A DNA stretch of 42,110 nucleotides from Cystobacterineae bacterium (GCA_009782175.1 WRKR01000026.1:1-42110), one strand, 5' to 3'; counted from the first letter of the stretch, positions 1,580 to 28,806 are shown. Notes: generated from the sequence alone by a model not told the origin. Program-made: numbers and translations.

Positions 1580-3283
1580 TTGAAAACATGGAAGCTTTTG
1601 AGCATAGGTTTGAGCACAGGAATGTTGTTGGCCATGGGTTGCGGTGGCCTTAGCTCCGTGGATGAGGAGGGGGCGAAGGACAGGTGCCAGCATGGCCCAC
1701 AAGACAACTGCGGCGAGGGCTTCACATGTATGCTGTCGGCGGAGCAGAGGATTTATACTTGCGTGTCCACACCCAAAGCAGATTGTCTGGTGGGTGACAA
1801 CGCCCCCTGTCAAGAGTGGCAAACATGCGTGGGCAAGGATGGGGACACCCCAGGCGCCCCGGGCACATGCCAGGATGAGTGTCGCGTGGGCAGTGTTGAC
1901 TGTGGCAAAGGCTATGAGTGTGTTTCGCCGGGCAGGTGCCAGAAAGAAGAAACCCCTGTGGGGAGGCTTTGTGGCGACAACGAGTGCCGCTCCGACCAAG
2001 TTTGCTTGGAAAACCAGTGTGTTACCTGGACACCCTCCAGCCGCCTGGAGTGCTCTCATACCTTGACGTCCCAGAGTACGGTGACAGAGCCTTTGGTTGT
2101 TTCAGGCCGGCGTCTGGTGTTTGGGGCTAGCACCCAGCTCCATGTGTTTGACACCGCCACCTGCAGACCTATAGGGCAGATGCAAACGGGCCGTGTACAA
2201 GGCCCCATGGTGGCCTTGGGTGACAGCGGGCGGGTGGCTGTGGCCATAGGCACTGGTGGGCTTGGCTATCGAAATAACCGGCTTTCTTTGGTGAATGTAG
2301 CAGGTGGAACGCCAAGTTTTGTTTATAATATTAGCGACGGCAGGGATTGTGCGCAAAATAGCCTTCAGACCCTGAACAACGCTAATTTCAACCAAGGCCT
2401 TTCTTTGCTCACCAGGGGGAATGCAAGTGGCACAGAGGATTGGGCTTTTGCGGCACCCGCCAACAACAACAATCGATTGGTTGCTTATAGGCCCTACAGA
2501 GCAGACCATCGTTGTGTGACTTCAGACCCGGTGCCACACCCTTTTATAGTGCCAATAGCCCAAGATCTTTATAGCAGGGTGGTGGGAATTTCTAGAGATT
2601 CCAATCCCCCAAACAGTGTCTCTATTCAATGGGGAGGGTTTCCTGCAAACACCGGAGTATGGGATGCGTTTACTAACCCCGACACCATAGCAATCCAGAA
2701 CCCTACGTTTATGGCTATTGTTGATCAGAACAGAATGTGGGTGAGCGATTCATCCATTGGAAGCCCGGCAGCCGTTGACAGCGAGGACCTGGTTTATGTT
2801 GTGGAAAGGGTCGAAAATACCCCCGGTGACTATCAACTTAACAGTTATCATATAAACATTGGACCCAGTCTAGTCCTCACCGGAGCAGATCGCACACTTG
2901 GGCCCCAAAGCGATCCTTTCACCGTCCCCGCCCCTGCTGGTGGTGGCATAGACATTGTGGGCTCTCCCCTGCTGGGTGAACCCATTCCGGGCAACCTCGC
3001 CGAGGTTTATGTGGTGACAATGGATGGCCAGGTGCTTGCCTTCCGCGCGGACACTTTGGCGCTTTTGTGGAGAGAGGAGTTGAATATTCACATTTCTCGC
3101 TCGGCACAACCCGTGCTCCTGGGCAGCACCTTGTGGGTGGTGGGTGAGGGAGGCCAAATACGCGGCATTCGCACCAACAGCAGGGGCTTAAAGCGCGACG
3201 CTGATTGGCCCAAGGCTTTTCGCGACAACTGCAACACCAGCAGCCGTGTGGAACCCTCAGCCAACATGCCTGGGTGTTATTAA
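1580..3283 (+). CDS. Cys-rich lipoprotein with beta-propeller-like C-terminal half (family member 1)
   Basis: 567 residues. The TTG start is chosen because aaaggag sits 8 nt upstream. The signal peptide ends in a lipobox LAMG-C21, so the mature protein should be lipid-anchored, probably on the outer membrane. Residues 30-150 are Cys-rich without a strict tandem repeat (pattern C-x-VG-x4-C-x6-C). From about residue 155 comes the head shared with the other four members: QGPMVALGDSGRVAVA, then FNQGLSLL and WAFAAPAN, then SPLLGEP and a PQQ-like strand pair (EVYVVTMDGQVLAFRADTL). It ends WPKAFRDNCNTSS and a terminal MPGCY. RDNCN resembles the WPxFxxDxxNTG motif that closes many PQQ/FG-GAP propellers (known from memory). 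It is the shortest member and converges on the Gcr-like gene. Ligand unknown. Confidence 0.85.
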   Translation: MKTWKLLSIGLSTGMLLAMGCGGLSSVDEEGAKDRCQHGPQDNCGEGFTCMLSAEQRIYTCVSTPKADCLVGDNAPCQEWQTCVGKDGDTPGAPGTCQDECRVGSVDCGKGYECVSPGRCQKEETPVGRLCGDNECRSDQVCLENQCVTWTPSSRLECSHTLTSQSTVTEPLVVSGRRLVFGASTQLHVFDTATCRPIGQMQTGRVQGPMVALGDSGRVAVAIGTGGLGYRNNRLSLVNVAGGTPSFVYNISDGRDCAQNSLQTLNNANFNQGLSLLTRGNASGTEDWAFAAPANNNNRLVAYRPYRADHRCVTSDPVPHPFIVPIAQDLYSRVVGISRDSNPPNSVSIQWGGFPANTGVWDAFTNPDTIAIQNPTFMAIVDQNRMWVSDSSIGSPAAVDSEDLVYVVERVENTPGDYQLNSYHINIGPSLVLTGADRTLGPQSDPFTVPAPAGGGIDIVGSPLLGEPIPGNLAEVYVVTMDGQVLAFRADTLALLWREELNIHISRSAQPVLLGSTLWVVGEGGQIRGIRTNSRGLKRDADWPKAFRDNCNTSSRVEPSANMPGCY

Positions 3284-12141: not shown

Positions 12142-12303
12142 CTAGACCGTTTTTACCTTGAAGTGATTTGATTCTCCAGACCGGTTTCAATTTGACATGA
12201 GGTCGAGGCGGACGAGGCTTTTGTGAGGGGAGTGCACTTAAGTGCATGACCCGAACAAAAACGAGTCCAACGAAGAGATCATGTCAAAGTGGAAGCGGTC
12301 TAG
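12142..12303. mobile_element. MITE-like element, left copy
   Basis: Bounded by CTAGACCG and CGGTCTAG. The core has 23-bp terminal inverted repeats at 12178-12200 and 12279-12301 (agaccggtttcaatttgaca-tga against its partner). In the middle is a perfect palindrome tgcacttaagtgca (12233-12246). It encodes nothing. The reverse complement of 17648-17889 is clearly the same element with about 80 bp more, so the two copies flank the large lipoprotein gene in opposite orientation. Confidence 0.8.
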
Positions 12304-12533
12304 CCGCCGGGGAATGCCCAGCAGCTGCGGGAGAGCCTTTGGGGCTTCATCCATACCATGCCCCCCCATTTAAATGCCCCCCCACAGAAAGGGGTGCGTG
12401 CCTATAGGGCCCTGGTTAACAAATGAAACAGCTTCAAGCACAGGCTAACAACAGTGGCATAAAGGCGCACATACACAAGAGAATTTTTCTAAAAAACAGT
12501 TTTAAAAAAACAGGTTTTTAAAAGGAGTCCAAG
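12304..12533. other. Leader region of the large lipoprotein gene
   Basis: No gene seen. It holds a symmetric ccccccatttaaatgcccccc (about 12361-12382) and an A/T-rich stretch with a twice-repeated acag-ttttaaaa motif immediately before the ribosome binding site aaaggag. A promoter is expected here, but no confident -35/-10 pair was found. Confidence 0.3.
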
Positions 12534-15500
12534 GTGTCAACACGAGGTATTTCAGCCATACATTTAACAACAAGCAAGGGTTTAGCCCAAGGCTTAACTC
12601 TGGTAACGGCGGTTGTTTTGTGGGGTTGCGGCGTAGGGGGTATTACTGTGGAAAGTTGCACGCTGGGCGAAGACGGGGAATGCCCACAAGGCCATATATG
12701 CCGAGCTACGACCACCACACCCCCGGGGCAAGGCATATGTATGCCGGGAGAGAGGCCCCCCATAGGCAGCTGTACACCGGGCGAGGCGGATGCATGCCCC
12801 GAAGGACAAACATGCCGGGACACAGCGGACACACCCGCCGGACAAGGTACCTGCCTGCCCAGTGAGCGGTGCATGCTGGATGGAAGCTGGGCCTGCCAAG
12901 CGGATGAAATATGCTTGGACACCCACAACACACCCGCCGGAGAAGGCACCTGCTTTCCCCAAGGCACTTGCACGCTGAGCAGCGGCACAGAGTGCGCGCA
13001 GGGCGAGCAATGCAAAGAGGCGGTGGGTTTGCCCCCCGGGCTGGGGACTTGCATGCCCCAAAGCTGTATACCGGGTGATGACCAAAGCTGCCCAGGCAAT
13101 TGGATATGCTGGAAGCCAGAGCATGCAGAAGAAGGAAGTTGCGTCCCCCCAAACCATTGCGAAGGGCTAGGCACAAGCTGCGGAGAGGGTGTCGGCCTGG
13201 AGTGCAAACCCGGGCTGGGGCTGCCTGAAGGCTCAGGCCTGTGTTTGCCGGAGGAGGAGTGCATTGTGGGCTCAGCCGGTGGATGCGGTGGCAACCAGGC
13301 CTGCAAACCCTCCAACCTCCCCAACGGCTCAGGTTTATGCCTGGAGCTCAACGCGTGCGTCCTCGGAGCCGAAGGCGGATGCGCTGCAAACCTCGAGTGC
13401 AAACCGGCAGACGAAGGAGCGGAAATAGGCCTGTGCATGGAGGCTGACAAATGCATTCCGGGAGTGAGTGGCGGCTGCGGCACCGGCACCTGCTGGAGCA
13501 GTGGAGACTGTGTACCCGAGAACACCTGCGAGCTGGCCAATGACACCTGCGGCGTGGGCCTGGAGTGCAAGCCTAGCACAGGGGTGATGGACACTTTAGG
13601 CTTGGGCCTATGCTTGGCTCCAGACAAATGCGTCCCCGGAGCGCTGGGCGGCTGCGGAACCGATGAAAGCTGCTGGAGCACCGGAGACTGCGTGCCCACC
13701 GACACCTGTGAGTTGGCCAACGACACCTGCGGCACGGGCCTCGAGTGCAAACCGGCAACCGACCTGCCCCAAGGTGCAGGGCTGTGCATGGCACCCGACA
13801 AATGCATTCCCGAAGCGCTGGGCGGCTGCGGAGCCGAGGAAACCTGCTGGAGCACCGGTGACTGTGTACCCGAGAACACCTGCGAGCTGGCCAATGACAC
13901 CTGCGGCGTGGGCCTTGCGTGCAAGCCTACCACAGGGGCAATGGACACTTTAGGCTTGGGCCTATGCTTGGCTCCAGACAAATGCGTCCCCGGAGCGCTG
14001 GGCGGCTGCGGAACCGATGAAAGCTGTTGGAGCAGTGGTGACTGCGTGCCCACCGACACCTGTGAGTTGGCCAACGACACCTGCGGCACGGGCCTCGAGT
14101 GTAAACCGGCAACAGGGCTTCCCGAAGGCGCAGGGTTGTGCCTGGCAGAGGACAAATGCATTCCAGAAGCAGTGGGCGGCTGCGGCACCGGAACCTGCTG
14201 GAGCACCGGAGACTGCGTGCCCACCAACACCTGCGCGTTGGAAAACGACACCTGTGGCGTGGGCCTCGAGTGCAAACCGGCAACCGACCTGCCCGAAGGC
14301 GCTGGGCTGTGCCTGGCAGAGGACAAATGCATTCCAGAAGCAGTGGGCGGCTGCGGCACCGGAACCTGCTGGAGCACCGGGGACTGTGTGCCCACCAACA
14401 CCTGCGAGCTGGACAATGACACCTGCGGCGTGGACCTCGAGTGCAAACCGGCGACAGGGTTGCCCGGGGGCGCGGGCCTGTGCCTGGCAGAGGACAAATG
14501 CATTCCAGAAGCAGCTGGCGGCTGCGGCACCGGAACCTGCTGGAGCACCGGAGACTGTGTGCCCACCAACACCTGCGAGTTGGAAAACGACACCTGCGGC
14601 GTGGGCCTCGAGTGCAAACCGGCAACCGACCTGCCCGAAGGCGCTGGGCTGTGCCTGGCAGAGGACAAATGCATTCCAGAAGCAGTGGGCGGCTGTGGCA
14701 CCGGAACCTGCTGGAGCACCGGTGACTGTGTGCCCACCAACACCTGCGAGTTGGAAAACGACACCTGCGGCGTGGACCTCGAGTGCAAACCGGCGACAGG
14801 GTTGCCCGGGGGCGCGGGCCTGTGCCTGGCAGAGGACAAATGCATTCCAGAAGCAGCTGGTGGCTGCGGCACCGGAACCTGCTGGAGCACCGGAGACTGT
14901 GTGCCCACCAACACCTGCGAGTTGGAGAACGACACCTGTGGCGTGGGCCTCGAGTGCAAACCGGCAACCGACCTGCCCGAAGGCGCGGGGCTGTGCCTGG
15001 CAGAGGACAAATGCATTCCAGAAGCAGTGGGCGGCTGCGGCACCGGAACCTGCTGGAGCACTGGAGACTGTGTGCCCACCAACACCTGTGAGAACATAGG
15101 CGAGGCATGCGGCGAAGGCGAAAACCTCGAGTGCAAGCCGGCGACAGGGCTGCCCGGGGGCGCTGGCCTGTGCTTGGCAGAGGACAAATGCATTCCAGAA
15201 GCAGCTGGCGGCTGCGGCACCGGAACCTGCTGGAGCAGTGGAGACTGTGTGCCCACCAACACCTGCGAGTTGGAGAACGACACCTGCGGCGTGGGCCTCG
15301 AGTGCAAACCGGCAACCGACCTGCCCGAAGGCGCTGGGCTGTGCCTGGCAGAGGACAAATGCATTCCAGGAGCAGGGGGTGGCTGCGGCACCGGAACCTG
15401 CTGGAGCAGTGGAGACTGTGTGCCCACCAACACCTGTGAGAATATAGGCGAGGCCTGCGGTGAAGGCGAAAACCTCGAGTGCAAGCCGGCAACAGGGTTG

Positions 15501-17651
15501 ATGGAAACTTTAGGTTTAGGCTTGTGTCTGCCAGAAGACAAATGTGTCCCCGGCTCCACCGGCGGCTGCGGTGAAGGCATTTGCCTGAGCAGTGGTGACT
15601 GTGTCCCCCCCAATACCTGCACGCTGGCAGGTGGAACAGAGTGTGACGAGGCCGGCCTCAGCTGCAAGGGCGCGTCGGGCTTGCCCGAAGGCATAGGCCT
15701 GTGCTTAGCGGAGAATGCCTGCATACCGGCAGCAGGGGATGCGTGGTGCGCAGGCAGCAACATATGCTGGGACAGCGGAGCAGCCCTCGGCTCCTGCGTG
15801 CCCAACAACACCTGCGAGTTGGACAATGACCTGTGCGGCGGCGGGCTGGTCTGCAAACCGGCACCGGGCCTGCCTGAAGGCGCGGGCCTGTGCCTGGGCA
15901 TAGATGACTGCTACCTTGAAATGGGAGGCGGATGCCTTGAGGGTTTTGAGTGCAAGCCTATATACCCAGGCCTGGAAAATGGTTTGTGCATGGAGGCAAA
16001 CAAGTGCAGCCCATTGTCAGGCGGCGGATGTGGCGACGGAATGTGCTGGAACACCGGCGACTGCGTACCGTCAAATGCCTGCACGCTGGACGGGACAGAA
16101 TGCAGCGCAGCAGGTTTTGAGTGCAAGGCAGTGACGGGGCTGGGGCTTCCGGCAAACATAGGGCTATGCCTTGGGGTAGACGAGTGCGTTGTTGGAGCGG
16201 GCGGTGCGTGTGGAGCTGGGCTCGCGTGCAAACCCTCCAGCATAGAAGGTGGGCCGGGGTTGTGCCTGGCTCCAGAGGCGTGTGTCCCCGGAGCGAGTGG
16301 GGGTTGTGAAGAGGGCTATAGCTGCTCTCCCCCGGAGAGCGGTGAAATAGGCACCTGCATCATCCCTGACATTGCAGTGGAGACGGGGCTGACGCAAACC
16401 ACGCTGCCTTTGGCTTGGACAGACGGCCATGTGGTGATTGGAAGCTCTGACGGCTCCAACAATGGCTCTGTACATTTCTATGACACCCGCCAGGGCACAC
16501 TGTCCAGCTCCGAAAACCTGGGGCCGCTAACAGGCCTTTCCAGCTTGGGCGACAGCGGACGCGTGGCCATCACCACCCTTGAGCGGATTTCCGTGCTGAA
16601 TTCCAATGCTCAGTTTGTGGATATAACCCACGCCACGGATTGCCGGAGCGCTCAAGGCAACATCCACGAGTCCACGCGTTTCCGCTATGGACTCAGCTTG
16701 CTTTCCGTGGGCAATAACGATGGTAGCGGCAATTGGCGCTTTGCGGTGCCCGGCAATGCCAACTCGGGCAACAACCATCAGCTGGTGGCCTATCTCCCCC
16801 CGGGCAGCAGCGGGAGCGAAGGCGGCCATTGCTGGACATATAATTGGTCCTTAATAAATCCGGCCGCTCCCTTGGCGGTGCAATCCAACGCAGAAGTGCT
16901 GCTGATGCGCAAGGACCCTGTCACCAACAACCAAAATTATGTGTATAGGCTTGCATGGGACAACAGCACTTCCACCTGGTCATCTCTGGGCAGCTATCAG
17001 AGTTTTGAGCCGGCTTTCCTCACCTCAGTAGGCGTTGCGGCCAGCGACAACCGCTATTGGGTATCTGCCCAGCACAGCGCGGGTGCAACCTTGGCACATG
17101 ACGGCTACCATGGATTTCTGCTCTCCATCACCGACATCGGCGCCGTGGCTTTGGATGCAAATGACAGCGCCTATGTCGTCGTGAAGAGCGCGTTGGAGGC
17201 GCTCAACTATAACTATGAGTTCCGTCGCTATAGCTCCACCATGGAGTCTTATGAAGAGCCCGACAGAAGCACCTCGCTGCTCCAAAACTCTGTTCCACCC
17301 GTCGGCAGCCCCATTTTGGGCGAGCCCACTTCCGGCAACCCCGCTGACGCTGAAGTCTATCTCGTGATGACTGACGGAACCCTTCATGCTTTTAACGCTG
17401 GAAATTTGAGTTTGAAGTGGACCAAGCAACTGCAAAGAAGCAATGGCCAGCCCTTAAGCATTTCTCCCACGGCACAGCCCCTGCTGCAGGGCAACCGCCT
17501 ATGGATAATAGGGACGCAGGGAGAGTTGCGGGGCATAACCGTGGACAGCAACGGCCTGAGAAAAAACGCCCCGTGGCCCAAAATGCACAGGGACAACTGC
17601 AACTCGGGCAGCCAGCTTTCCACCCCCACCACCCTGCCCAGCTGCTTCTAG
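12534..17651 (+). CDS. Giant Cys-rich repeat lipoprotein with propeller-like head (family member 2)
   Basis: 1705 residues. The GTG start is chosen because aaaggag lies 7 nt upstream. Signal peptide with lipobox VLWG-C32. Residues about 40-330 carry shorter Cys-rich units (C-x2-GEADACPEGQTC type). Residues 332-1028 are twelve 57-61-residue units with the pattern CELENDTCGVGLECKPAT, then GAGLCLAEDKCIP, then GGCGTGTCWSTGDCVPTNT (8 Cys per unit). Three more diverged units follow. From about 1280 comes the shared head: PLAWTDGHVVIGSS, LGDSGRVAIT, WRFAVPGN, SPILGEPTSGN, YLVMTDGTLHAFNA, QPLLQGNRLWIIG, then WPKMHRDNCN and terminal LPSCF. Probably a disulfide-rigid stalk holding a surface binding head. 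The TAG stop is formed by the end of a MITE-like element. Partner unknown. Confidence 0.85.
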   Translation: MSTRGISAIHLTTSKGLAQGLTLVTAVVLWGCGVGGITVESCTLGEDGECPQGHICRATTTTPPGQGICMPGERPPIGSCTPGEADACPEGQTCRDTADTPAGQGTCLPSERCMLDGSWACQADEICLDTHNTPAGEGTCFPQGTCTLSSGTECAQGEQCKEAVGLPPGLGTCMPQSCIPGDDQSCPGNWICWKPEHAEEGSCVPPNHCEGLGTSCGEGVGLECKPGLGLPEGSGLCLPEEECIVGSAGGCGGNQACKPSNLPNGSGLCLELNACVLGAEGGCAANLECKPADEGAEIGLCMEADKCIPGVSGGCGTGTCWSSGDCVPENTCELANDTCGVGLECKPSTGVMDTLGLGLCLAPDKCVPGALGGCGTDESCWSTGDCVPTDTCELANDTCGTGLECKPATDLPQGAGLCMAPDKCIPEALGGCGAEETCWSTGDCVPENTCELANDTCGVGLACKPTTGAMDTLGLGLCLAPDKCVPGALGGCGTDESCWSSGDCVPTDTCELANDTCGTGLECKPATGLPEGAGLCLAEDKCIPEAVGGCGTGTCWSTGDCVPTNTCALENDTCGVGLECKPATDLPEGAGLCLAEDKCIPEAVGGCGTGTCWSTGDCVPTNTCELDNDTCGVDLECKPATGLPGGAGLCLAEDKCIPEAAGGCGTGTCWSTGDCVPTNTCELENDTCGVGLECKPATDLPEGAGLCLAEDKCIPEAVGGCGTGTCWSTGDCVPTNTCELENDTCGVDLECKPATGLPGGAGLCLAEDKCIPEAAGGCGTGTCWSTGDCVPTNTCELENDTCGVGLECKPATDLPEGAGLCLAEDKCIPEAVGGCGTGTCWSTGDCVPTNTCENIGEACGEGENLECKPATGLPGGAGLCLAEDKCIPEAAGGCGTGTCWSSGDCVPTNTCELENDTCGVGLECKPATDLPEGAGLCLAEDKCIPGAGGGCGTGTCWSSGDCVPTNTCENIGEACGEGENLECKPATGLMETLGLGLCLPEDKCVPGSTGGCGEGICLSSGDCVPPNTCTLAGGTECDEAGLSCKGASGLPEGIGLCLAENACIPAAGDAWCAGSNICWDSGAALGSCVPNNTCELDNDLCGGGLVCKPAPGLPEGAGLCLGIDDCYLEMGGGCLEGFECKPIYPGLENGLCMEANKCSPLSGGGCGDGMCWNTGDCVPSNACTLDGTECSAAGFECKAVTGLGLPANIGLCLGVDECVVGAGGACGAGLACKPSSIEGGPGLCLAPEACVPGASGGCEEGYSCSPPESGEIGTCIIPDIAVETGLTQTTLPLAWTDGHVVIGSSDGSNNGSVHFYDTRQGTLSSSENLGPLTGLSSLGDSGRVAITTLERISVLNSNAQFVDITHATDCRSAQGNIHESTRFRYGLSLLSVGNNDGSGNWRFAVPGNANSGNNHQLVAYLPPGSSGSEGGHCWTYNWSLINPAAPLAVQSNAEVLLMRKDPVTNNQNYVYRLAWDNSTSTWSSLGSYQSFEPAFLTSVGVAASDNRYWVSAQHSAGATLAHDGYHGFLLSITDIGAVALDANDSAYVVVKSALEALNYNYEFRRYSSTMESYEEPDRSTSLLQNSVPPVGSPILGEPTSGNPADAEVYLVMTDGTLHAFNAGNLSLKWTKQLQRSNGQPLSISPTAQPLLQGNRLWIIGTQGELRGITVDSNGLRKNAPWPKMHRDNCNSGSQLSTPTTLPSCF
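13527..15617 (+). repeat. Twelve tandem units of about 171 bp coding the Cys-rich stalk
   Basis: Units are 57-61 codons long. Units 5, 7, 9 and 11 carry TDLPEGAGLCL and units 6, 8 and 10 carry TGLPGGAGLCL, so the array has a 342-bp dimer periodicity laid over the 171-bp unit. Units 7 and 9 are identical in amino-acid sequence, and unit 5 differs from them by one residue. This points to recent unequal recombination in two-unit steps. Confidence 0.92.
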
Positions 17652-17889
17652 ACCGCTTTCACTTTGACATGATCTCTTCGTGAGACTCGCTTCGCTCGTC
17701 TATTCCGCTCCAGGAATCATTTGAGAAAGCATGCTTTCTCAAATGATTCCCTCCGCTCCATTGGGCTCCGGTTTCACTCAGGTCATGCACTTAAGTGCAC
17801 TCCCATCGTGAAATCCTCGCCCGCCTCGACCTCATGTCAAATTGAAACCGGTCTGGATAATCAAATAACTTTAACCTGGAACCGGTCTA
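17648..17889. mobile_element. MITE-like element, right copy, overlapping the stop of the giant lipoprotein gene
   Basis: Begins CTAGACCG, where the TAG is the stop codon of the preceding gene, and ends CCGGTCTAA. The 23-bp inverted arms at 17650-17672 and 17832-17854 differ at two positions. It shares the palindrome tgcacttaagtgca (17786-17799) with the left copy, in inverted orientation. Relative to the left copy it holds about 80 extra bp containing gcttcgctcg-type repeats and a 38-bp palindrome. No coding capacity. Confidence 0.8.
17713..17750. repeat. Perfect 38-bp palindrome
   Basis: Left half ggaatcatttgagaaagca, right half its exact reverse complement, centred on gcatgc. It lies inside the right MITE-like copy and is absent from the left one, so it is probably a nested insertion. 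The ccgctcca direct repeat on either side (17705-17712 and 17752-17759) could be a duplicated target. Confidence 0.9.
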
Positions 17890-18220: not shown

Positions 18221-21200
18221 ATGCAGAATGAAGTTTTTTTGAGAGCAAAGGTGTGGCTAAGCAAAGCAGGCCATGCCAAGCACTCTATAGGTTTAAAAAA
18301 GGAATGGAACAAAAGCGTTTCCGTTATGGGCCTTGGCCTGTTTGCCGCTGCCTTATGGGGTTGCGGCAACACAGGAGGGATTACCATAGACAGTTGTACA
18401 CTGGGAGCGGAGGGGGCCTGTGCACCAGGCCATATATGCCAGGCCACCACGGGTATGCCCGCCGGACAAGGGATATGCGTGCCCAAAGGCAGGTGCACCC
18501 TGGACGGGGCCTGGGCCTGTGAGCAGGGAGAAATATGCTGGGATACGGCAGACACGCCTGAAGGCATGGGTACCTGCATGCCCGAAAATACCTGCACCCT
18601 GGATAACCCCCAGGAGTGCGCTGAGGGAGAAATATGCTTAAATACCCCACACACCCCCGAAGGGCTCGGCACCTGCACGCCTGCAGGCCTCTGCACCCTG
18701 CCCGAGGGCAAAGAGTGCGCTGAGGGACAAAGTTGTTTTAATACTACACACACACCTGAAGGCATGGGCACCTGCCTCCCCAAGGACACCTGCACCCTGG
18801 ACAACCCCCAAGAGTGCGCTGAGGGACAAACATGCTTAAATACCACACACACCCCCGAAGGGCTCGGCACCTGCGCACCTGCAGGCAGCTGTACCTTGCC
18901 TGAGGGCGAAGAGTGCGCACAGGGAGAAATATGTTTTGATACGGCGGACATGCCTGAAGGCATGGGTACCTGCATGCCCGGAAATACCTGCACACTGAAC
19001 AACCCCCAGGAGTGCACCGAGGGAGAAATATGCTTAAATACCACACACACGCCCGAAGGCATGGGCACCTGCGCCCCCGAAGGCAGCTGTACCTTGCCTG
19101 AAGGCGAGGAGTGCGCTGAGGGCCACAGCTGTTTTGATACAGCGCATATGCCTGAAGGCATGGGCACTTGCGCCCCCGAAGGCAGCTGCACCTTGCCTGA
19201 GGGCGAGGAGTGCGCTGAGGGCCACAGCTGTTTTGATACAGCCTATACGCCTGAAGGCATGGGCACCTGCGCCCCTGAAGGCAGCTGTACCTTGCCTGAG
19301 GGCGAGGAGTGCGCCGAGGGCCACATTTGTTTGGACACAGCGCACACGCCGGATGGCCTGGGCAGCTGCGCGCCTGAGGGCGGTTGTATATTGGGGCAAC
19401 CCGAGGCGTGTTTAGAGGGGTGGGAGTGTTGGCACCCAGGGGACACCCCGGCATGGCAAGGGATATGTACGCCCCAGGGTGGAAGGCTCCTCCAGTGGAG
19501 GCTTGTGCAAGGCGGCGTGGAAATAGTGCCCTTGAGGGACATAGGCGAGTTGGCAGACAACCCGGGTGCGGGGTGGTTGGGAGCGGCGGCAGGCGAGTTG
19601 GAGCTGTTGAGTGAAGGCCCCGGCAGTGGCACAGGCCTTCAAGTATATGTGGGGAGTGAGGCGGCAAGCTGCACGGCAACGCAGCAAGGCAGCATAGAGC
19701 GCTATAGGTGGAATTGCAGCCTGGGGGCAGGTTTTATTGGTCCGGGGCCGACGCTGGTGGTGCAGGCGCAACTGGGCAGTGGTGCGCTGCAGGAGAAAAC
19801 ATACCAAGCGGCGCCACATGCACCCGAGTTGGTGTTGAGTGTGGTGGGCGGCGGGCCCAACGGGAGCGGATTGCTGGGCAGCACGGTGACGGTGTGCGTT
19901 GAGGCCGAAGCCAGAGGAAGCGCTGCCGTAGACTCGCTGTCCGTTGGCCCCCTTTCCGTGAGCATTGGCAGCAACACCTTGGCCTGGGCATGGGAAGTGC
20001 TGGAGGAAAACACGCTGACACGGCAATGCTGGAGAGCTCCCTTGCCACAGGAGACGGAGCTGGGCACATTGACGGTGAGCGCCAACGTTGTGGTAACGGA
20101 CACAGCACGCAACACCGCTTCCAGCGAGCAGACAGCACAGCTGGTGCTGACACGCGTTATGCTCCATGCCTCAACGGGCATTTCCGGAGCTGTTATGCCT
20201 TTGGCTTGGACAGACAAATATGTGGTGGTGGGCAGCTCCACCCAAAGCCAGGGGCAGGTGTATTTTTTTGACAGTGAGGAAAGCAGGCTGGAGAACGAGA
20301 ACCCTCCAGAGGTGGGGCCCTTAACAGGGCTTGCAAGCTTGGGCAACAGTGGGCGCGTAGCCATCAGCACAGCTGGGGATATGGCGCGCACCTCGCTGGT
20401 GGACTCCAGCGGCAACTTTGTTTATGGAGCCGGCATGGACTGCAGGAGAGGCTCTGGCGCCAGTGGCGGCATGGGTGAAAATGTGAGCTTCCCCCATGGG
20501 CTGACTTTGCTTTCTATAGGCAATATAGAGGATGGCAGCGGAAACTGGCGTTTTGCGGTGCCCGTTAATACGCCCTCTCAAGGAAGCATTTTGGCCTATA
20601 CTCCCCATGGAGGAAGCGTTGCCAACAATTGCCACCCAAGCGGCCCCCTCTCCAGCACGGTTATTGCTCACTTTGTGGGGATGGACAACGCTTTAGAGGT
20701 GATGACGGTGAGCGGAACGGACCCCATTGCTGTACGGCGCTGGGCATATAACCCTGCAACCTCCCTGTGGGCAGACACACTCGAGTCTACAGGCGGCATT
20801 GCAAGCCCCATTTATAACACCATTGGACTTGCAGCGAGTTTTGCCTCGGGAACCTATCATTTTTGGTTGACGGCTGCATGGGCGAATAATGACAGGTCCG
20901 GGTTTGACGTCATGCGCGGCAGAATGGAAGACGGCACCACCGCCTTTGTCGCCACACTGGAGTCCACCGGCGCCGTGGCTTTGGATGAAAGTGGCCGCGC
21001 CTATGTCGTGGTGCAACCCAGAGACAGTGCTCTACACGAGCTTCACCGCTATGCCCCCTATGCCAGCGGCACAGCAGCGCCTCTGACAAGCGTGGCGCTG
21101 CCTCAGACAAGCGCCGCCACACCCGTCGGCAGCCCCATTTTGGGCGAGCCCCTCTCAGGCAACCTCGCTGATGCGGAGCTTTATGTCGTCACGACGGATG

Positions 21201-21475
21201 GCACTGTTTATGCTTTCAACGCCGACACTTTTGCGCACCTATGGACGCAGCCCCTGCTCACCGCAAGCGGCCAGCCCATTGCCGTCGCCTCCACAGCACA
21301 GCCCGTGCTGAAGGGCAACCAACTGTGGGTTATGAGCGAAGGCGGAGAGTTATATTCCGTGCTTGTGAGCAGCAACGGCCTAAGCCGCCTAGCGCAGTGG
21401 CCCACCATGCACAGGGACAATTGCAACTCCAGCAGCCGCTATTCCACCTTCGGCAGGCTGCCCAGCTGCTTCTAA
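18221..21475 (+). CDS. Cys-rich repeat lipoprotein with Ig-like and propeller-like parts (family member 3)
   Basis: 1084 residues from ATG with aggaga 10 nt upstream. A long, basic n-region leads to the lipobox AALWG-C48; an internal ATG at 18326 would leave only a 12-residue leader. The first mature residues (GNTGGITIDSCTLG) closely resemble member 2 (GVGGITVESCTLG), so these two are close duplicates. Residues 59-421 are eleven 33-residue units (CTLPEGEECAEGHSCFDT, then PEGMGTCAPEGS; 4 Cys each). Residues about 425-645 look like two Ig-like strands-rich segments (TVCVEAEAR, VVVTDTARNTASSEQ). The shared head follows, with SLGNSGRVAIS, WRFAVPVN, SPILGEPLSGN, YVVTTDGTVYAFNADT, WPTMHRDNCN and terminal LPSCF. 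Followed by a strong terminator. Confidence 0.85.
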   Translation: MQNEVFLRAKVWLSKAGHAKHSIGLKKEWNKSVSVMGLGLFAAALWGCGNTGGITIDSCTLGAEGACAPGHICQATTGMPAGQGICVPKGRCTLDGAWACEQGEICWDTADTPEGMGTCMPENTCTLDNPQECAEGEICLNTPHTPEGLGTCTPAGLCTLPEGKECAEGQSCFNTTHTPEGMGTCLPKDTCTLDNPQECAEGQTCLNTTHTPEGLGTCAPAGSCTLPEGEECAQGEICFDTADMPEGMGTCMPGNTCTLNNPQECTEGEICLNTTHTPEGMGTCAPEGSCTLPEGEECAEGHSCFDTAHMPEGMGTCAPEGSCTLPEGEECAEGHSCFDTAYTPEGMGTCAPEGSCTLPEGEECAEGHICLDTAHTPDGLGSCAPEGGCILGQPEACLEGWECWHPGDTPAWQGICTPQGGRLLQWRLVQGGVEIVPLRDIGELADNPGAGWLGAAAGELELLSEGPGSGTGLQVYVGSEAASCTATQQGSIERYRWNCSLGAGFIGPGPTLVVQAQLGSGALQEKTYQAAPHAPELVLSVVGGGPNGSGLLGSTVTVCVEAEARGSAAVDSLSVGPLSVSIGSNTLAWAWEVLEENTLTRQCWRAPLPQETELGTLTVSANVVVTDTARNTASSEQTAQLVLTRVMLHASTGISGAVMPLAWTDKYVVVGSSTQSQGQVYFFDSEESRLENENPPEVGPLTGLASLGNSGRVAISTAGDMARTSLVDSSGNFVYGAGMDCRRGSGASGGMGENVSFPHGLTLLSIGNIEDGSGNWRFAVPVNTPSQGSILAYTPHGGSVANNCHPSGPLSSTVIAHFVGMDNALEVMTVSGTDPIAVRRWAYNPATSLWADTLESTGGIASPIYNTIGLAASFASGTYHFWLTAAWANNDRSGFDVMRGRMEDGTTAFVATLESTGAVALDESGRAYVVVQPRDSALHELHRYAPYASGTAAPLTSVALPQTSAATPVGSPILGEPLSGNLADAELYVVTTDGTVYAFNADTFAHLWTQPLLTASGQPIAVASTAQPVLKGNQLWVMSEGGELYSVLVSSNGLSRLAQWPTMHRDNCNSSSRYSTFGRLPSCF
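18395..19483 (+). repeat. Eleven 99-bp tandem units in lipoprotein member 3
   Basis: 33-codon units, each with four cysteines. Two flavours occur, CTLDNPQEC and CTLPEGEEC; the later copies (about 19088-19384) are three successive CTLPEGEECAEGH units that are almost identical, marking the most recent duplications. Confidence 0.9.
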
Positions 21476-22578: not shown

Positions 22579-22614
22579 TTTCCATGGAGCCTCGCACAGC
22601 GAGCCTCCAGTGGA
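22579..22614 (-). terminator. Hairpin after lipoprotein member 4
   Basis: Read on minus, ttccactggaggctcgc pairs with gcgaggctccatggaa (one bulge, one mismatch) just past the stop codon. There is no T-tract, so it may stabilise the message rather than terminate it. Its gcgaggctcc wording recalls the palindromic repeat family seen at 25496-25540. Confidence 0.5.
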
Positions 22615-22620
22615 ACCCCT

Positions 22621-25092
22621 CTAAAAGCAACTGGACATGGAGGTGTTGCTTGAGCTGACGGCGGTGCTGCTGGTGTTGCAATTGTCCCTAAAAGCCTTGG
22701 GCCAAATGGCTGTGCGGCTCAGGCCCGGGCTGTTGACGCGCAGGCCGCGCACTTGGCCTTGGGCACCCACCACCCACAGGGTGCCTCCACCGTGGGGATG
22801 GGGCACCAACACCGGCTGCGCCGTGGGCAAAACGCGCATCCCCAGGCTTTGCACCCACAAGGGGCCGAGGCTATCCACTTCCAGGGCCAGCACGGTGCCG
22901 TTGGTGGAAACAACATACATTTCGCTATAGGGGCTGCCTGGTGCCCGCTCCCCCAGAAGGGGGCTGCCTACAAAATCCTCATCAAAAGAAACACTGCTCG
23001 CCCGGCAAAGCCCTATGGCGCCAAGGGATTTGTCGCCATTCAAACCAAAACAGTCTTCTGGGGGTATACGCAAGGGTTGGTTACCTGGGCGACAGGGGTT
23101 GTTGTTGATGTCGCCGACAAAGCATATCTCCGAAAAACGCCACATTTCATGGCCTGAGCGGGTGCCCACGGCCACATAGGCGCGGTTTTGGCTGTCAACA
23201 ACCGCCGGGCTTGTGCGCTCCTGGAGCACCGTCTCCATTCCCAAAAAATAGTCCGCATAGAGCAAGCCATCACCACTCAACCATAAATATTCATAAGGCT
23301 CTTGGACGGTGGTGGGGGCTGAATATCTTCCCACAGCCGCACCTGAAGGCTTCTTGAGCGCCATGTCGTATGTCTGAGCGTCCGATGGGTTGAAAGCACA
23401 GTTTTCACAAAACCACCATCGGTTCAGCTTTGCTTCGTGAAAGCTGGCGATGTTGTGACCATAGATGTCCCCATATCCAACATAGTGCAGGGGTGTCAGG
23501 GTGAAGCGCTCTGAAACAGGCGGCTGCGCCATTTTGTCTTCCTCAATGCAACGCCCTTCCAGCCTTTGGATATTGGGCCCAAAAACCATGAGCCGACTTT
23601 CCCCCTCCAGCGCGCTGTTGGCGGGTGCTGCCAAATACCAGTTGGGGCCGTTGGGGTTGTCCATAATGAGAGAAAGGCCCTTGTCAAACAGGGCTTCGGG
23701 GTGGCTTCCTCCCGTGCCGGGAACACAATCCATCTCACTGTTGTTGGAAAAGCCTGGCGCCGCATGGGCCTGTGGCGCATTCACCACAGAAAGGCGCGGC
23801 GTGCTCCTTCCTGGGGGCCCACCCTCGCCCAGGGCCAGGGCGATTTGTCCGCTGTGGCCCAAAACCACCATGGGGCCTTGTACGGCCCCCACATGCACGT
23901 TGGAATGCAGCTCACAGGCCTCGGCGTCCACAAAATACAGTGCATTGTCGGCCGCCAAAGCCCCTGCACCCATGCTGCTTCCAAAGGTTAAAAAGCCATT
24001 CGAAAAAGCCAAAGGCGCTTTCACCGCATTGGCCGAAAGCCCCTCCACTTGAGCGCTGCAGGACAGACGCTGGAAGCTTCCATAAATCTGATCCTTAAAC
24101 AGGTTTTCTGCCTCATCTCGAGCGCCTACCTCCAAGCTGAAATAGAGGGACTCAAGGGATTGAGGCCAGGCCTCTGTTGTTCCTGTCCAGCATGTAGAAA
24201 GTGTATTGGCTGCCCCACCTTCATGCACCCATGCAATCTCCACCACCCCCTCCAAGGGCTCGGTTGAAGCCCAGGGAGAATAGGGCGTTTCAATGCCCAC
24301 TATTTTGCTTTGAGTTTCTGTCGCTTTTTCTATTTGCGCGCATACATGCACGGTGGTTCCGTCAAAGGCGGGGGAGCCGCAGGTGCCTGGCATGCCGGCT
24401 TGCTGGGTGCCGCCAATGCCCAGGCAGGCAGAGCCGTCAGCACAGTTGTTGCCGACGCGGCACTTGGTGCCTGAAAAAACCATGAGCCCCACCCGTGGCG
24501 CCTCTATGTCCACGCGGTATATGCGCTCGCGCTTGGGGGCACCCGCTCCAGGCTGAATGCTGAGCTTCACCGTCTCCAGGAGTTCTGCCGACCTCTCCTC
24601 GGGCAGAGCAGGGGCCAGCCAAGCTTCAGGCAAAGCGCAGCTCCACAGCTGGGCTCTGCTGTCTTCTATTTCTGTCACCTCTGAGGACGCGCATGCTATT
24701 TCTTCACCCTCAACCCAGAGGCTTGGCTTTTCATCAGGCTTTAAGCCCACCACCTCGGCCTCCAGGGTCGCCGCCCTCTTGTTCACCCATTCCGTGGAGG
24801 TGGTGGCGTTGCCTGGGGGGCTGGGCTCTTCCGCGCTGTCCCATGCCAAAGGCACCACCTCCGCTTGGTTGGAGAGCAGCAAACGCCACTGCTTCAGCTT
24901 TGGCACCAGTGTATATTCTGCAGAAAGCTCCCCTAGGGTGCATACGCCGGGGCCCTTTTGTACCCCCTCTCCACCATAGCAAACCGTGTCAGAAGGACAG
25001 TTGTTTCTGCCCACTTTGCACACGCCCACTTCATTGCAGCCAGAGGCGAAGAGTGCCAACACCACCACTGGGCCCCATTTTTGTGTTCTCAT
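22621..25092 (-). CDS. Lipoprotein with Cys motifs, Ig-like section and propeller-like head (family member 4)
   Basis: 823 residues. The frame is open further upstream, but the ATG at 25092 has ggaagga just before it and gives a textbook signal peptide (MRTQKWGPVVVLALFASG-C19). There is no tandem array: one Cys cluster follows the lipid anchor (CKVGRNNCPSDTVC) and a second, similar one (CRVGNNCADGSACLG) is embedded after an Ig-like stretch around residue 210. The shared head has QGPMVVLGHSGQIALALG, FDKGLSLIMDN, WYLAAPANS, SPLLGERAPGS, YVVSTNGTVLALEVDSL and QPVLVPHPHGGGTLWVVG, then WPKAFRDNCNTSS and terminal SMSSCF, with two residues more than its relatives in the tail. Probably surface-exposed and lipid-anchored. 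Confidence 0.83.
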   Translation of the reverse strand: MRTQKWGPVVVLALFASGCNEVGVCKVGRNNCPSDTVCYGGEGVQKGPGVCTLGELSAEYTLVPKLKQWRLLLSNQAEVVPLAWDSAEEPSPPGNATTSTEWVNKRAATLEAEVVGLKPDEKPSLWVEGEEIACASSEVTEIEDSRAQLWSCALPEAWLAPALPEERSAELLETVKLSIQPGAGAPKRERIYRVDIEAPRVGLMVFSGTKCRVGNNCADGSACLGIGGTQQAGMPGTCGSPAFDGTTVHVCAQIEKATETQSKIVGIETPYSPWASTEPLEGVVEIAWVHEGGAANTLSTCWTGTTEAWPQSLESLYFSLEVGARDEAENLFKDQIYGSFQRLSCSAQVEGLSANAVKAPLAFSNGFLTFGSSMGAGALAADNALYFVDAEACELHSNVHVGAVQGPMVVLGHSGQIALALGEGGPPGRSTPRLSVVNAPQAHAAPGFSNNSEMDCVPGTGGSHPEALFDKGLSLIMDNPNGPNWYLAAPANSALEGESRLMVFGPNIQRLEGRCIEEDKMAQPPVSERFTLTPLHYVGYGDIYGHNIASFHEAKLNRWWFCENCAFNPSDAQTYDMALKKPSGAAVGRYSAPTTVQEPYEYLWLSGDGLLYADYFLGMETVLQERTSPAVVDSQNRAYVAVGTRSGHEMWRFSEICFVGDINNNPCRPGNQPLRIPPEDCFGLNGDKSLGAIGLCRASSVSFDEDFVGSPLLGERAPGSPYSEMYVVSTNGTVLALEVDSLGPLWVQSLGMRVLPTAQPVLVPHPHGGGTLWVVGAQGQVRGLRVNSPGLSRTAIWPKAFRDNCNTSSTAVSSSNTSMSSCF

Positions 25093-25495
25093 AGACGTCC
25101 TTCCGAAGGTTTTGCACCCATTGCCATTCAAGTTGCCGCTCAAGCCAACACGCCGCTCAAGCCATACGCTGTTCAGCCCATACGCTTTTAAACGCATATG
25201 CTGTTCAACCCACACGTCCCCGGCCGCACTGCTGTTGCGCCCCTGTTCCCCCCCCCTGGGCTGCCCTTTGTTTGCTCCCTCTAAGCCCCCCCCACTCTAA
25301 ACCCAAGCCTCTTATAGCACAGGGGAGGCTTTCAAAGTGTTTTTTAGATATAGTTGAGCTCTGCCTTCAAGCGGGGTGTGCAACAGGGTTGAGCCGTCCA
25401 ACTCTTCCCTACAGCCCAGGGGCAGCCTTCTGCAGTGGGGCCAAGCGGCCTCCCTCCGCAGCCTTATGGGGTTGTGGGGAGCCCCCATGGAGTGG
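25093..25495. other. Region between two lipoprotein genes, with relic-like sequence
   Basis: No intact gene. At 25148-25210 a short phrase (gctgttca-gcccatacg and variants) recurs three or four times. On plus, 25457-25480 reads ccgcagccttatggggttg-tgg, a 22/24 match to the lipobox-coding region of member 3 at 18346-18369, and could be a relic of a lipoprotein gene start. Confidence 0.35.
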
Positions 25496-25567
25496 AATAG
25501 GCGAGCAACGCGAGCCTCGCTTTAGCTCGCCTCACGAAAAGCTTATGTCCAAGTGAAAGCGGTCTAG
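25496..25567. repeat. Partial MITE-like end with palindromic core at the stop of lipoprotein member 5
   Basis: Read on minus it starts CTAGACCGCTTTCACTT and continues through a gtgag-rich, gcgagctaaagcgaggctcgc palindrome to ctattccactcca. This parallels 17648-17712 (CTAGACCGCTTTCACTT to ctattccgctcca). As there, the TAG of the element is the stop codon of a lipoprotein gene. The rest of the element is missing. Confidence 0.75.
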
Positions 25568-28500
25568 AAGCAGCTGGGCATATGGGCCCAGGTGGTGCGT
25601 GCGTTGCTGGTATTGCAGTTGTCCCTGAAGGCTTTGGGCCATGGCGCGGTATGGTTGAGGCCGTTGCTGGCTACGCGGATGGCGCGCACCTGGCCTTGAG
25701 TCCCCACCACCCACAAGGTACCTCCGCCCTGGGCATGGGGCACCAGCACGGGCTGAGCTCCCTGGGAAATGTTAAAGCCCAACTCCATCATCCACAGGCG
25801 CGTCAGCGTGTTGGCATCAAAGGCAAACACTCTGCCGTTGCCCCTCACCACATAAAGCTCCGGGTTGCTGGAAGAGGCGGGCTGTCCCAGCAGGGGGCTG
25901 CCGACCAGGTTTCCTGTGGAGCCTGTGGGGAGGGTTTGGATGGCTTCGACGGTGCCGTCACTGTTGAGGCGGACCAAGTCATACCTTGAGCCTCCGAGGG
26001 TTTCATAGCCCACCACATAGGCCCGGCCCCAGCTGTCCACCGCGGCAGGCCCTGTGCGATAGATAGGGGAGAGCGGCGTATTCAGTGGAGCTGCAGTCCA
26101 CCTTTCAAAAAATTGAAGGGCATGGTGGGGTGAGCTGGTATAGGCAGAGAGCCAGAAGCTTCCGCCATTCAGTGCAATGCCCGAGAGGGTTCCTTCTGTG
26201 AGGTCGTTAAAGGTCGAGGGGTTGTCTGCCCAATAGCCATTCTCGTCAAAGGCCCATTCCGCCCGGGTATGTATATTCTCATGGACCACCACCAGCCAAG
26301 CGTCAAAGCTTTGGGGTGGCGTCAGCGCAACGGGGGCCGGGAGGGGAGTGGGTGTGGCCATACAGCGCTCTGCGGCTGTTGCTGCGGAGGGCATATAGGC
26401 CACCAGCACAGCATCATTGGAGGTATTGGCTGGGGCGGCAAGGCGCAAGGGGTTTGAGCCAAGCAGGGAAAGCCCCTTGTCAAAATGTGCTGAGGAGACA
26501 TGGGTGTTGGCCGCCCCTACGGCACAATCCTCCGCGGCTGCAGAGGCGAAGCCCGGTTGGGTTGCTGTTGCATCCACCACCAGGAGGCGTGAGCTTGTTC
26601 GCCCTGCGGGCCCTCCCGTTCCTGTGGTAGCCACAGCCAGGTTTCCATTTTCCAATGCCACCATGGGACCAATCACATTGCCCGTTTGCAAAGGAGCTCC
26701 AACCTCAAGGCAGGTGTCCGCATCGATGAAATGGAGGGAGTTGCCTGCAGAAAAAACCAAGCGGCCCTGCACAAAAGTCAGCGGTGCGTTGACGCCATTG
26801 GCCGTGGCTATTTCACAGGAAATGCGTGTCAACCTCAACGGCGCGCCATAAACCGCACTCTGGAGGTTGCCGGCCACATCCACAGCAGTGATGGCAAACT
26901 CCACATCTACACTCTCCCATGTCCATTCCAAAGGCAGGGTGGTTGTCCAACATTTTTCTCCTTGGGCCAAGGCACCTTCTGTCCAACTCAGCGGCAAGGC
27001 TGTGCCGCTTTGCCCCAGTTGCAGTTGCGTTAAGAGGATGTTGTCCAGGGGGGCGAAGGTGCTTGTTGCAGAAGCGCAGACGCGCAGCGTTTCACCCAGC
27101 ACGCCCACAGAAGGCACCTCAAGGGAGGCCTGGGGGAGCTCAAGGCTGGTCTGATAAGTCCACACCTGCGCGGCCTCGCTCTCGATGCTGGCCAGCACCT
27201 CTATGCGAGGGCCAGTGCCTGCCCAAGCCGCAGGCAAAGCGCAACTCCACTCACAGGTGGTGGGGTTGGCCGTACATCTGGCCTTGCATGCCAAGGGGGT
27301 GGGGTTTTGAGAGGTGCGTACATAGAGGCTCTCCATGGCCTCAGCCCCCTGAGTGCTCAGGCGTATTTCCGCCTCACCCAGGCCTACCCAACCTGCATCC
27401 GGGTTGTCTTCAGTGGCGCCGTCAGCACGCAGAGGCGTCACCAGCTGCTCGCCAATGAACAATTGAAAACCGCTGAGGCTCGTTAACTCTTGGCAAACGC
27501 TCTCCTCACAGCTTTCTCCTGCAGGGCAATAGGTGCCACCGCTCTCACAGGGGACCTCCTCGGGCAGCTCACAGGCATTTTGATAGCAAAGAAGTCCAGC
27601 TGAGCAATAGGTGCCGCCGTTTTGACAGGGAACCTCCTCGGGCAGCTCACAGTCACTTTGATAGCAAAGGAGTCCAGCTGAGCAATAGGTGCCGCCGTTT
27701 TGACAGGGAACCTCCTCGGGCAACTCACAGGCATTTTGATAGCAAAGGAGACCAGCTGAGCAATAGGTGCCGCCGTTTTGACAAGAAACATCTTCGGGCA
27801 ACTCACAGTCACTTTGATAGCAAAGAAGTCCAGCTGAGCAATAGGTGCCGCCGTTTTGACAGGGAACCTCCTCGGGCCGCTCACAGTCATTTTGATAGCA
27901 AAGGAGACCAGCTGAGCAATAGGTGCCGCCGTTTTGACAGGGAACCTCCTCGGGCAACTCACAGGCATTTTGATAGCAAAGGAGTCCAGCTGTGCAATAG
28001 GTGCCACCGTTTTGACAAGAAACATCCTCGGGCCGCTCACAGGCATTTTGATAACAAAGGAGTCCAGCTGTGCAATAGGTGCCACCGTTTTGACAAGAAA
28101 CATCCTCGGGCCGCTCACAGGCATTTTGATAGCAAAGGAGTCCAGCTGAACAATAGGTGCCGCCGTCTTGGCAGGGGACCTCCTCGGGCCGCTCACAGGC
28201 ATTTTGATAGCAAAGGAGTCCAGCTGAGCAATAGGTGCCACCGTTTTGACAAGAAACATCCTCGGGCCGCTCACAGGCATTTTGGTAGCAAAGAAGTCCA
28301 GCTGAGCAATAGGTGCCGCCGTTTTGGCAGGGGACCTCCTCGGGCCGCTCACAGGCATTTTGATAGCAAAGGAGTCCCCCAGGGCAATAGGTGCCACCGT
28401 TTTGGCAAGCGTTGGGTTCCGCCTTGCACTCGCGTATGCCCCCTTCTTCCACGCAGCTTTGCCCGGTGGGGCAAACCGTGCCGCCGTCTGCGCAGGCAGC

Positions 28501-28806
28501 GGCTGGTGGTTGGCAGTGGCCCGGGGCGCCTGTCTCTGGGCTGGCAATGCCTATGCAGGTTTCGCCTGGTGCACAGGGGCTGTTATCGCCGACATGGCAG
28601 TCCCCAACGTCCCTTAGGGGTGGGTTCTGCTCACAATAGCCCCATTGCCCAGCGGATGCCCCTGTGCAATATTGCCCCGCAGGACAAGCACCGGGTGCTC
28701 CCACTCTACAGGTGTTGAATGCATCTCCAAGCCTAATGCCCCCCGTGTCACAAGCGGCGCCCATGGCTAAAAACACTCCCAGAGCGAGGAATTTCCATAT
28801 CCGCAT
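25564..28806 (-). CDS. EGF-like-repeat lipoprotein with propeller-like head (family member 5)
   Basis: 1080 residues. The ATG has aggaga 7 nt upstream. Signal peptide LGVFLAMGAA-C19. Residues 30-130 hold irregular Cys pairs (CRVGAPGACPAGQYC, CHVGDNSPCAPGETC). Residues 134-419 are eleven 26-residue units CQNGGTYCSAGLLCYQNACE-RPEEVP, five Cys-containing positions including the next unit, reminiscent of EGF/notch-like CxNGGxC, plus one degenerate unit. An Ig-like stretch follows (about 445-640; LRVCASATSTF, FAITAVDVAGNLQSA). The shared head has IGPMVALENGNLAVATTG, FDKGLSLL, SPLLGQPASSSNPELYVV, GRVFAFDANTLTRLW, WPKAFRDNCNTSN and terminal MPSCF. The stop codon lies in a MITE-like end. Confidence 0.85.
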   Translation of the reverse strand: MRIWKFLALGVFLAMGAACDTGGIRLGDAFNTCRVGAPGACPAGQYCTGASAGQWGYCEQNPPLRDVGDCHVGDNSPCAPGETCIGIASPETGAPGHCQPPAAACADGGTVCPTGQSCVEEGGIRECKAEPNACQNGGTYCPGGLLCYQNACERPEEVPCQNGGTYCSAGLLCYQNACERPEDVSCQNGGTYCSAGLLCYQNACERPEEVPCQDGGTYCSAGLLCYQNACERPEDVSCQNGGTYCTAGLLCYQNACERPEDVSCQNGGTYCTAGLLCYQNACELPEEVPCQNGGTYCSAGLLCYQNDCERPEEVPCQNGGTYCSAGLLCYQSDCELPEDVSCQNGGTYCSAGLLCYQNACELPEEVPCQNGGTYCSAGLLCYQSDCELPEEVPCQNGGTYCSAGLLCYQNACELPEEVPCESGGTYCPAGESCEESVCQELTSLSGFQLFIGEQLVTPLRADGATEDNPDAGWVGLGEAEIRLSTQGAEAMESLYVRTSQNPTPLACKARCTANPTTCEWSCALPAAWAGTGPRIEVLASIESEAAQVWTYQTSLELPQASLEVPSVGVLGETLRVCASATSTFAPLDNILLTQLQLGQSGTALPLSWTEGALAQGEKCWTTTLPLEWTWESVDVEFAITAVDVAGNLQSAVYGAPLRLTRISCEIATANGVNAPLTFVQGRLVFSAGNSLHFIDADTCLEVGAPLQTGNVIGPMVALENGNLAVATTGTGGPAGRTSSRLLVVDATATQPGFASAAAEDCAVGAANTHVSSAHFDKGLSLLGSNPLRLAAPANTSNDAVLVAYMPSAATAAERCMATPTPLPAPVALTPPQSFDAWLVVVHENIHTRAEWAFDENGYWADNPSTFNDLTEGTLSGIALNGGSFWLSAYTSSPHHALQFFERWTAAPLNTPLSPIYRTGPAAVDSWGRAYVVGYETLGGSRYDLVRLNSDGTVEAIQTLPTGSTGNLVGSPLLGQPASSSNPELYVVRGNGRVFAFDANTLTRLWMMELGFNISQGAQPVLVPHAQGGGTLWVVGTQGQVRAIRVASNGLNHTAPWPKAFRDNCNTSNARTTWAHMPSCF
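27550..28407 (-). repeat. Eleven 78-bp tandem units in lipoprotein member 5
   Basis: 26-codon units with near-perfect identity. Variable positions are limited: N/D in CQNGG, S/T/P after TYC, QNA/QND/QSD, ER/EL and EEVP/EDVS. These variants are shuffled between units, which suggests gene conversion as well as duplication. Confidence 0.93.

Follow-up and report, generated by a model that had tools for sequence, protein, structure and literature searches.

The two inverted repeats on either side of the giant lipoprotein gene are very probably independent TA/CTAG insertions of one family of non-autonomous MITEs bounded by terminal inverted repeats (TIRs), with the stop codon rebuilt and the protein unchanged where an element lands in a stop, so that gene 3′ ends would be safe sites. 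The family, the TA/CTAG target, the stop-codon coincidence, the unchanged ORF ends and the empty sites in congeners were observed directly. In the mechanism that we propose, the element would enter at a TA, mostly within CTAG, and duplicate it; should that TA belong to a TAA or TAG stop, TAG would be rebuilt and the protein left the same, and gene 3′ ends, mainly those between convergent genes, would tolerate it. The copy at 17649 would thus have entered the stop of the giant lipoprotein gene, presumably turning TAA into TAG, and copy 1 at 12142 would be a separate intergenic insertion.

Two repeats flanking the giant lipoprotein gene

The window, that is, the whole stretch of 42,110 nucleotides analysed, contains a cluster of Cys-rich repeat lipoprotein paralogs (1580-3283, 12534-17651, 18221-21475, 22621-25215(-) and 25564-28806(-)). 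The features concerned are as follows.

12142-12303, plus strand: MITE copy 1, 160 bp, TA..TA at 12143-12302, L (left) end at 12143 and R (right) end at 12302; between a DUF3788 ORF and the giant lipoprotein ORF, not seated in a stop codon
12143-12168, plus strand: outer L terminus of copy 1, TAGACCGTTTTTACCTTGAAGTGATT
12177-12199, plus strand: inner L′ terminus of copy 1, CAGACCGGTTTCAATTTGACATG, which equals the outer end of a 126-bp form in congener G002
12277-12302, minus strand: R terminus of copy 1, TAGACCGCTTCCACTTTGACATGATC
12534-17651, plus strand: 1705-aa Cys-rich repeat lipoprotein with a C-terminal BamB/PQQ_2-like region (weak match), ending ...LPSCF-stop
17649-17889, minus strand: MITE copy 2, 241 bp, running from its R end at 17649 to its L end at 17889, orientation opposite to copy 1; target CTTC-TA/A
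17649-17651, plus strand: TAG stop of the 1705-aa ORF, TA from the target and G from the element; original stop probably TAA
17713-17750, no strand: 38-bp perfect palindrome, GGAATCATTTGAGAAAGCATGCTTTCTCAAATGATTCC, inside the extra module of longer variants
18221-21475, plus strand: paralog without an element at its stop, ending ...LPSCF-stop with TAA; taken as the reference for how the 3′ end looked ancestrally
22599-22623, minus strand: sequence like a degenerate R end, TAGAGGGGTTCCACTGGAGGCTCGC, where paralog ORF 22621-25215(-) stops
22621-25215, minus strand: paralog with the degenerate R end at its stop, ending ...MSSCF-stop
25541-25566, minus strand: third R end in the window, its TAG being the stop of paralog ORF 25564-28806(-)
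25564-28806, minus strand: paralog with an element at its stop, ending ...MPSCF-stop

The stretches at 12142-12303 and 17648-17889 were related as reverse complements, with 87% identity across a 112-bp stretch and 91% across a 45-bp one, and their exact borders were TA...TA (12143-12302 in copy 1 and 17649-17889 in copy 2). An additional module of about 80 bp, which contains the 38-bp perfect palindrome, was present in the second copy only, and both copies folded into hairpins far more stable than shuffled sequences (z of -6.7 and -8.6). Three statements of the preliminary description thereby held: that the two repeats are reverse-complement copies, that they are MITE-like (TIRs, TA duplication and at least 90 dispersed copies or remnants), and that copy 2 supplies the TAG stop of the gene, as the TAG at 17649-17651 ends ORF 12534-17651.

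According to the same description, the repeats bracket the gene like a composite mobile unit. On such a reading they would be the termini of a composite transposon, or of a cassette able to invert, and the 5.1-kb lipoprotein gene would travel or flip with them. The copies are indeed inverted, have termini in common, and could recombine through their homologous 112- and 45-bp stretches. However, each copy has its own TA insertion site, in separate CTAG and CTAA contexts, instead of a duplication at the outer ends only; the two belong to different length classes and differ by about 13% in sequence; and copy 2 sits in the gene's own stop, a position that elements also take in two further paralogs and in dozens of genes unrelated to them. 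Further, adjacent element pairs within about 5.5 kb numbered about 10 vs. 15 expected at random, and a region closely matching the C-terminal region of the gene occurs only once in the genome. A composite unit is therefore very improbable, and independent insertion remains the preferred reading.

The paralogs also bear on the suggestion that copy 2 may have reset the 3′ end of the gene. The host genome has nine lipoprotein paralogs, and the two congeners have about ten or more; they have a common C-terminal motif, RDNCNT...PxCF-stop, with a weak BamB/PQQ_2 match. An element lies at the stop of three of the nine host paralogs (P1, P3 and one on contig C48), and most of the others end with TAA. 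In all three genomes nearly all paralogs end at or within one residue of ..CF-stop or ..CY-stop, element present or not. Since the C-terminus of the giant lipoprotein (...PSCF-stop) is the same as that of element-free paralogs, its 3′ end was not reset, contrary to that suggestion; and since the rebuilt target at 17649 reads CTTC-TAA, the conversion of TAA into TAG was most likely the sole effect of the insertion.

Copies, anatomy and distribution of the family

The host genome (2.70 Mb in 65 contigs) yielded at least 90 separate copies or remnants in nucleotide searches combined with a terminal-motif search and in the stretches analysed, a minimum count because many contigs end within a copy. 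The terminal motif matched 148 times in this genome vs. once for a reversed-pattern control, well beyond what chance would give. Other copies and empty sites, whose absence the preliminary description had taken as refuting its proposal, were thus both found, the latter in congeners (see below), and mobility is favoured.

The elements are about 105-405 bp long, without coding capacity and too short for a transposase gene. TAGACCGnTT.. stands at both ends as terminal inverted repeats, and the elements fold into hairpins. At the R end the sequence is TAGACCGSTTYCACTTTGACATGATC; L ends vary more, e.g., TAGACCGnTTTTACTTAGAACTGATT, and a second, inner L end, the one listed for copy 1, lies 34 bp inside the outer one. 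In longer copies (window 17713-17750; L032-L039, L043 and L056), nested palindromic modules were seen, with a 38-bp GGAATCATTTGAGAAAGC... and CTTCCGTCAGCAAGCTCCACCGGAGCTTGC; these may be separate small repeats that inserted in the MITE. An Rfam search of the element returned no family above threshold.

Family matches numbered 24 and 16 in the two congener genomes, and none was found in 57 other genomes of the family or order that were searched, nor in the viral contigs searched with the R end. An exact R-terminus search over one genome per GTDB species, in which the window's own genome was possibly left out, returned only the MAGs WQYA01 (Cystobacterineae bacterium Emb289P3bin65) and WQTM01 (Co191P4bin16), whose isolate names we take to be from a higher-termite-gut MAG set. 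As far as searched, the family is confined to a small-genome myxobacterial genus with MAG members presumably from the termite gut. The three genus genomes (G000, G001 and G002) are 2.1-2.7 Mb, compared with about 4-13 Mb in relatives of the same family, as in a reduced myxobacterial lineage. Between species, the compared genes were 72-78% identical (22-28% different), while the closest elements were 91-99% identical, a gap that on sequence comparison would imply recent movement, transfer between species or constraint.

Target site, stop codons and orientation

TA is duplicated on insertion, and most complete copies have TA at both ends. When the target sites of the 33 complete copies were rebuilt (R-end base first), CTAG was found in 24, CTAA in four, CTAT in three and TTAG in two. 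As background, a 280-kb sample offered 1194 TA sites that were intergenic or in stops, and CTAG made up only 46 of these (p about 3e-27 against 24/33 copies). CTAG itself was strongly under-represented: for the window and L070-L119 together (250 kb of G000), base composition predicts 969 occurrences and 141 were observed, so the target of the element is rare. An empty site was seen directly, as G000 reads GTTTAT-TAA where the element-filled G002 reads GTTTAT-TAG-AGCGG. A second species comparison also gave empty sites: at one convergent junction, G000 and G001 carry independent insertions in opposite orientation, with each R end in the stop of the gene that adjoins it.

The element ends read TA-GACCG; because GACCG follows the TA, insertion into a TAA or TAG stop rebuilds TAG and leaves the protein unchanged. 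Pooled over the three genomes, the TAG of R ends was in frame 0 of a long ORF in 51 cases and in the other two frames in six (51:4:2), and the TAG of L ends was in frame 0 in seven cases and in other frames in eight. That the element's TAG is the stop codon of about 50 ORFs might be read as truncation, the element supplying a new stop and resetting 3′ ends. However, the frames are far from equal thirds, and element-free orthologs and paralogs stop at the same residue. In detail, the congener orthologs of genes that we take, from their C-terminal sequences and not from a family search, to be clpX, fabI, guaB, bamA, nadA and murA have the same last residue with TAG or TAA stops, several of them without an element at the stop and others with a remnant only. 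Truncation is refuted for the genes checked by these ortholog and paralog ends, and as a general account it is extremely unlikely. Since conserved genes marked by the element (clpX, guaB and bamA) end exactly at the element, that an element supplies a stop codon is not evidence of truncation.

Among complete copies at CTAG sites, 13 of 24 were at stops vs. 14 of the 46 available CTAG sites (p 0.02), so CTAG preference alone may not suffice. CTAG preference together with loss of harmful insertions accounts for most of the stop-codon seating, and a modest excess remains. The placement would accordingly be owed to purifying selection and CTAG preference, not to active recognition of stop codons. 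An element whose ends rebuild a stop codon on landing in one has a simple route to being harmless.

The copies at stops were mostly oriented in one direction, a bias that was strong overall, with R vs. L ends at 51:7, and weaker among complete copies, at 13 vs. 3 counted exclusively. The R end nearly always joins a C, as in C-TAA stops, and this asymmetric use of targets contributes to the R:L bias at stops and explains part of it. Two further explanations of the orientation were tried. A replication-strand explanation was rejected, as both orientations occur within single contigs (e.g., C8, C4, C15, C6 and C11); a reason in mRNA structure was unsupported by the copies away from stops, which showed no orientation bias toward the upstream gene (9 vs. 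12).

The hairpins were polar as well. In 31 of 33 copies, RNA folding favoured the L-to-R strand by about 14 kcal/mol, and in core copies from the three genomes the paired positions varied through G-U (65 cells) over A-C (5 cells), with compensatory changes. The L-to-R strand thus pairs through G-U at positions that would be A-C mismatches on the opposite one. The pattern points to past constraint on one of the strands, either as RNA or as single-stranded DNA; the evidence is suggestive only, because the copies are related. In the common orientation, the stronger-folding L-to-R strand is antisense to the gene that ends at the R end.

These observations, together with the short R-end remnants that persist at stop codons and the location of 30 of 45 R-at-stop copies (67%) between convergent genes vs. 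38% of all genes, would fit a domesticated 3′-end module, whose hairpin shields genes from the transcription of convergent neighbours or shapes the 3′ ends of their mRNAs, and which is for that reason retained at stops in one orientation. Against such a module, the off-stop copies lack the bias, the R:L difference was not significant in complete copies at CTAG sites (7 vs. 3), genes with CTAG stops are in general also mostly convergent (9/14), the strand polarity comes close to one observation given the common ancestry of the copies, and no U-tract terminator was evident at the element ends. We consider domestication quite unlikely. A wider proposition is likewise judged unlikely, namely that in this lineage the element lands by preference in stop codons and in a specific orientation, with insertion or retention biased so that R abuts the stop and the structured strand is antisense, and that it acts as a 3′-end module or insulator and not just as a tolerated MITE. 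The orientation bias and the polarity of the hairpins are accounted for in part only. As filled and empty orthologous stop codons exist in three species, tolerance vs. a 3′-end function is directly testable.

Possible mobilising transposase and comparison with known systems

A DDE transposase of IS630 or IS5/IS427 type would mobilise the MITE in trans. The preliminary description had proposed a search for a transposase with the same termini, and no transposase-bearing element with MITE termini was found in the loci examined. DDE_3, the IS630 transposase, was absent from the host genome. In the MITE-carrying congener G001, an IS630-type DDE_3 fragment was seen on contig C219 (L202 about 2300-2425), which may be what is left of the mobiliser. 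Only one transposase came up with the four families searched, that of an apparently intact element, presumably of the IS5 family, IS427 group (L201 1093-1930, at about 56.3-57.1 kb on contig C7 of G000). This element has two ORFs that overlap (DUF4096 and DDE_Tnp_1), its boundaries are CTAGAGCG...CGCTCTAG, and its insertion point is the CTAG end of a MITE remnant. Similar to the MITE, this element uses a CTAG site, but its TIR likeness to the MITE is limited to TAGA(G/C)CG plus scattered bases, and it is a single copy absent from the MITE-carrying congeners. The parent of the MITE may be extinct, unsampled or of a family outside those searched.

In size, lack of coding capacity, TIRs, TA duplication and a copy number of about 100, the present MITE resembles IS630-derived MITEs such as RUP of pneumococcus, Correia/NEMIS and Nezha; RUP is described as IS630-derived (PMC2229807). 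IS630 itself favours TA within CTAG, to judge from the title of Tenzen and Ohtsubo (1991) as cited in PMC2170065, and to that extent the target and its CTAG preference are alike. In contrast to IS630-derived MITEs, the present one has a host without DDE_3, a different TIR sequence and a modular interior, and about half of its complete CTAG insertions are in stops. As no DDE_3 with the same TIR was found, we do not place it among the derivatives of IS630/Tc1-mariner and say only that it works in the manner of such MITEs.

The supply of a stop by a repeat terminus has, by analogy, its published precedent in GTAG REPs, as the TAG stop of the ORF next to them often comes from a REP terminus (PMC3733652). 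Like the present MITE, these REPs lie near 3′ ends and between convergent genes, with G-T pairing in their stems (PMC3733652), which could point to a REP/RAYT-type system of GTAG palindromes moved by a Y1 transposase. However, GTAG REPs are palindromes of 20-40 bp associated with Y1 (RAYT) transposases, and Y1_Tnp (PF01797) was absent from all three MITE-carrying genomes; the MITE is several times longer than a REP, has TIRs and TA duplication, and stands in a C-TAG, not a G-TAG, context. A REP/RAYT origin is thus scarcely credible.

The enterobacterial repeats ERIC/RU-1 and YPAL/RU-2, palindromic and MITE-like at 127 and 168 bp, are also comparable, and some of them fuse to ORF 3′ ends (PMC2759123, PMC2229807). 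YPAL, unlike the present MITE, has no TA termini. RU-1 can remove the normal stop and so extend the protein, whereas the present MITE regenerates the stop in place.
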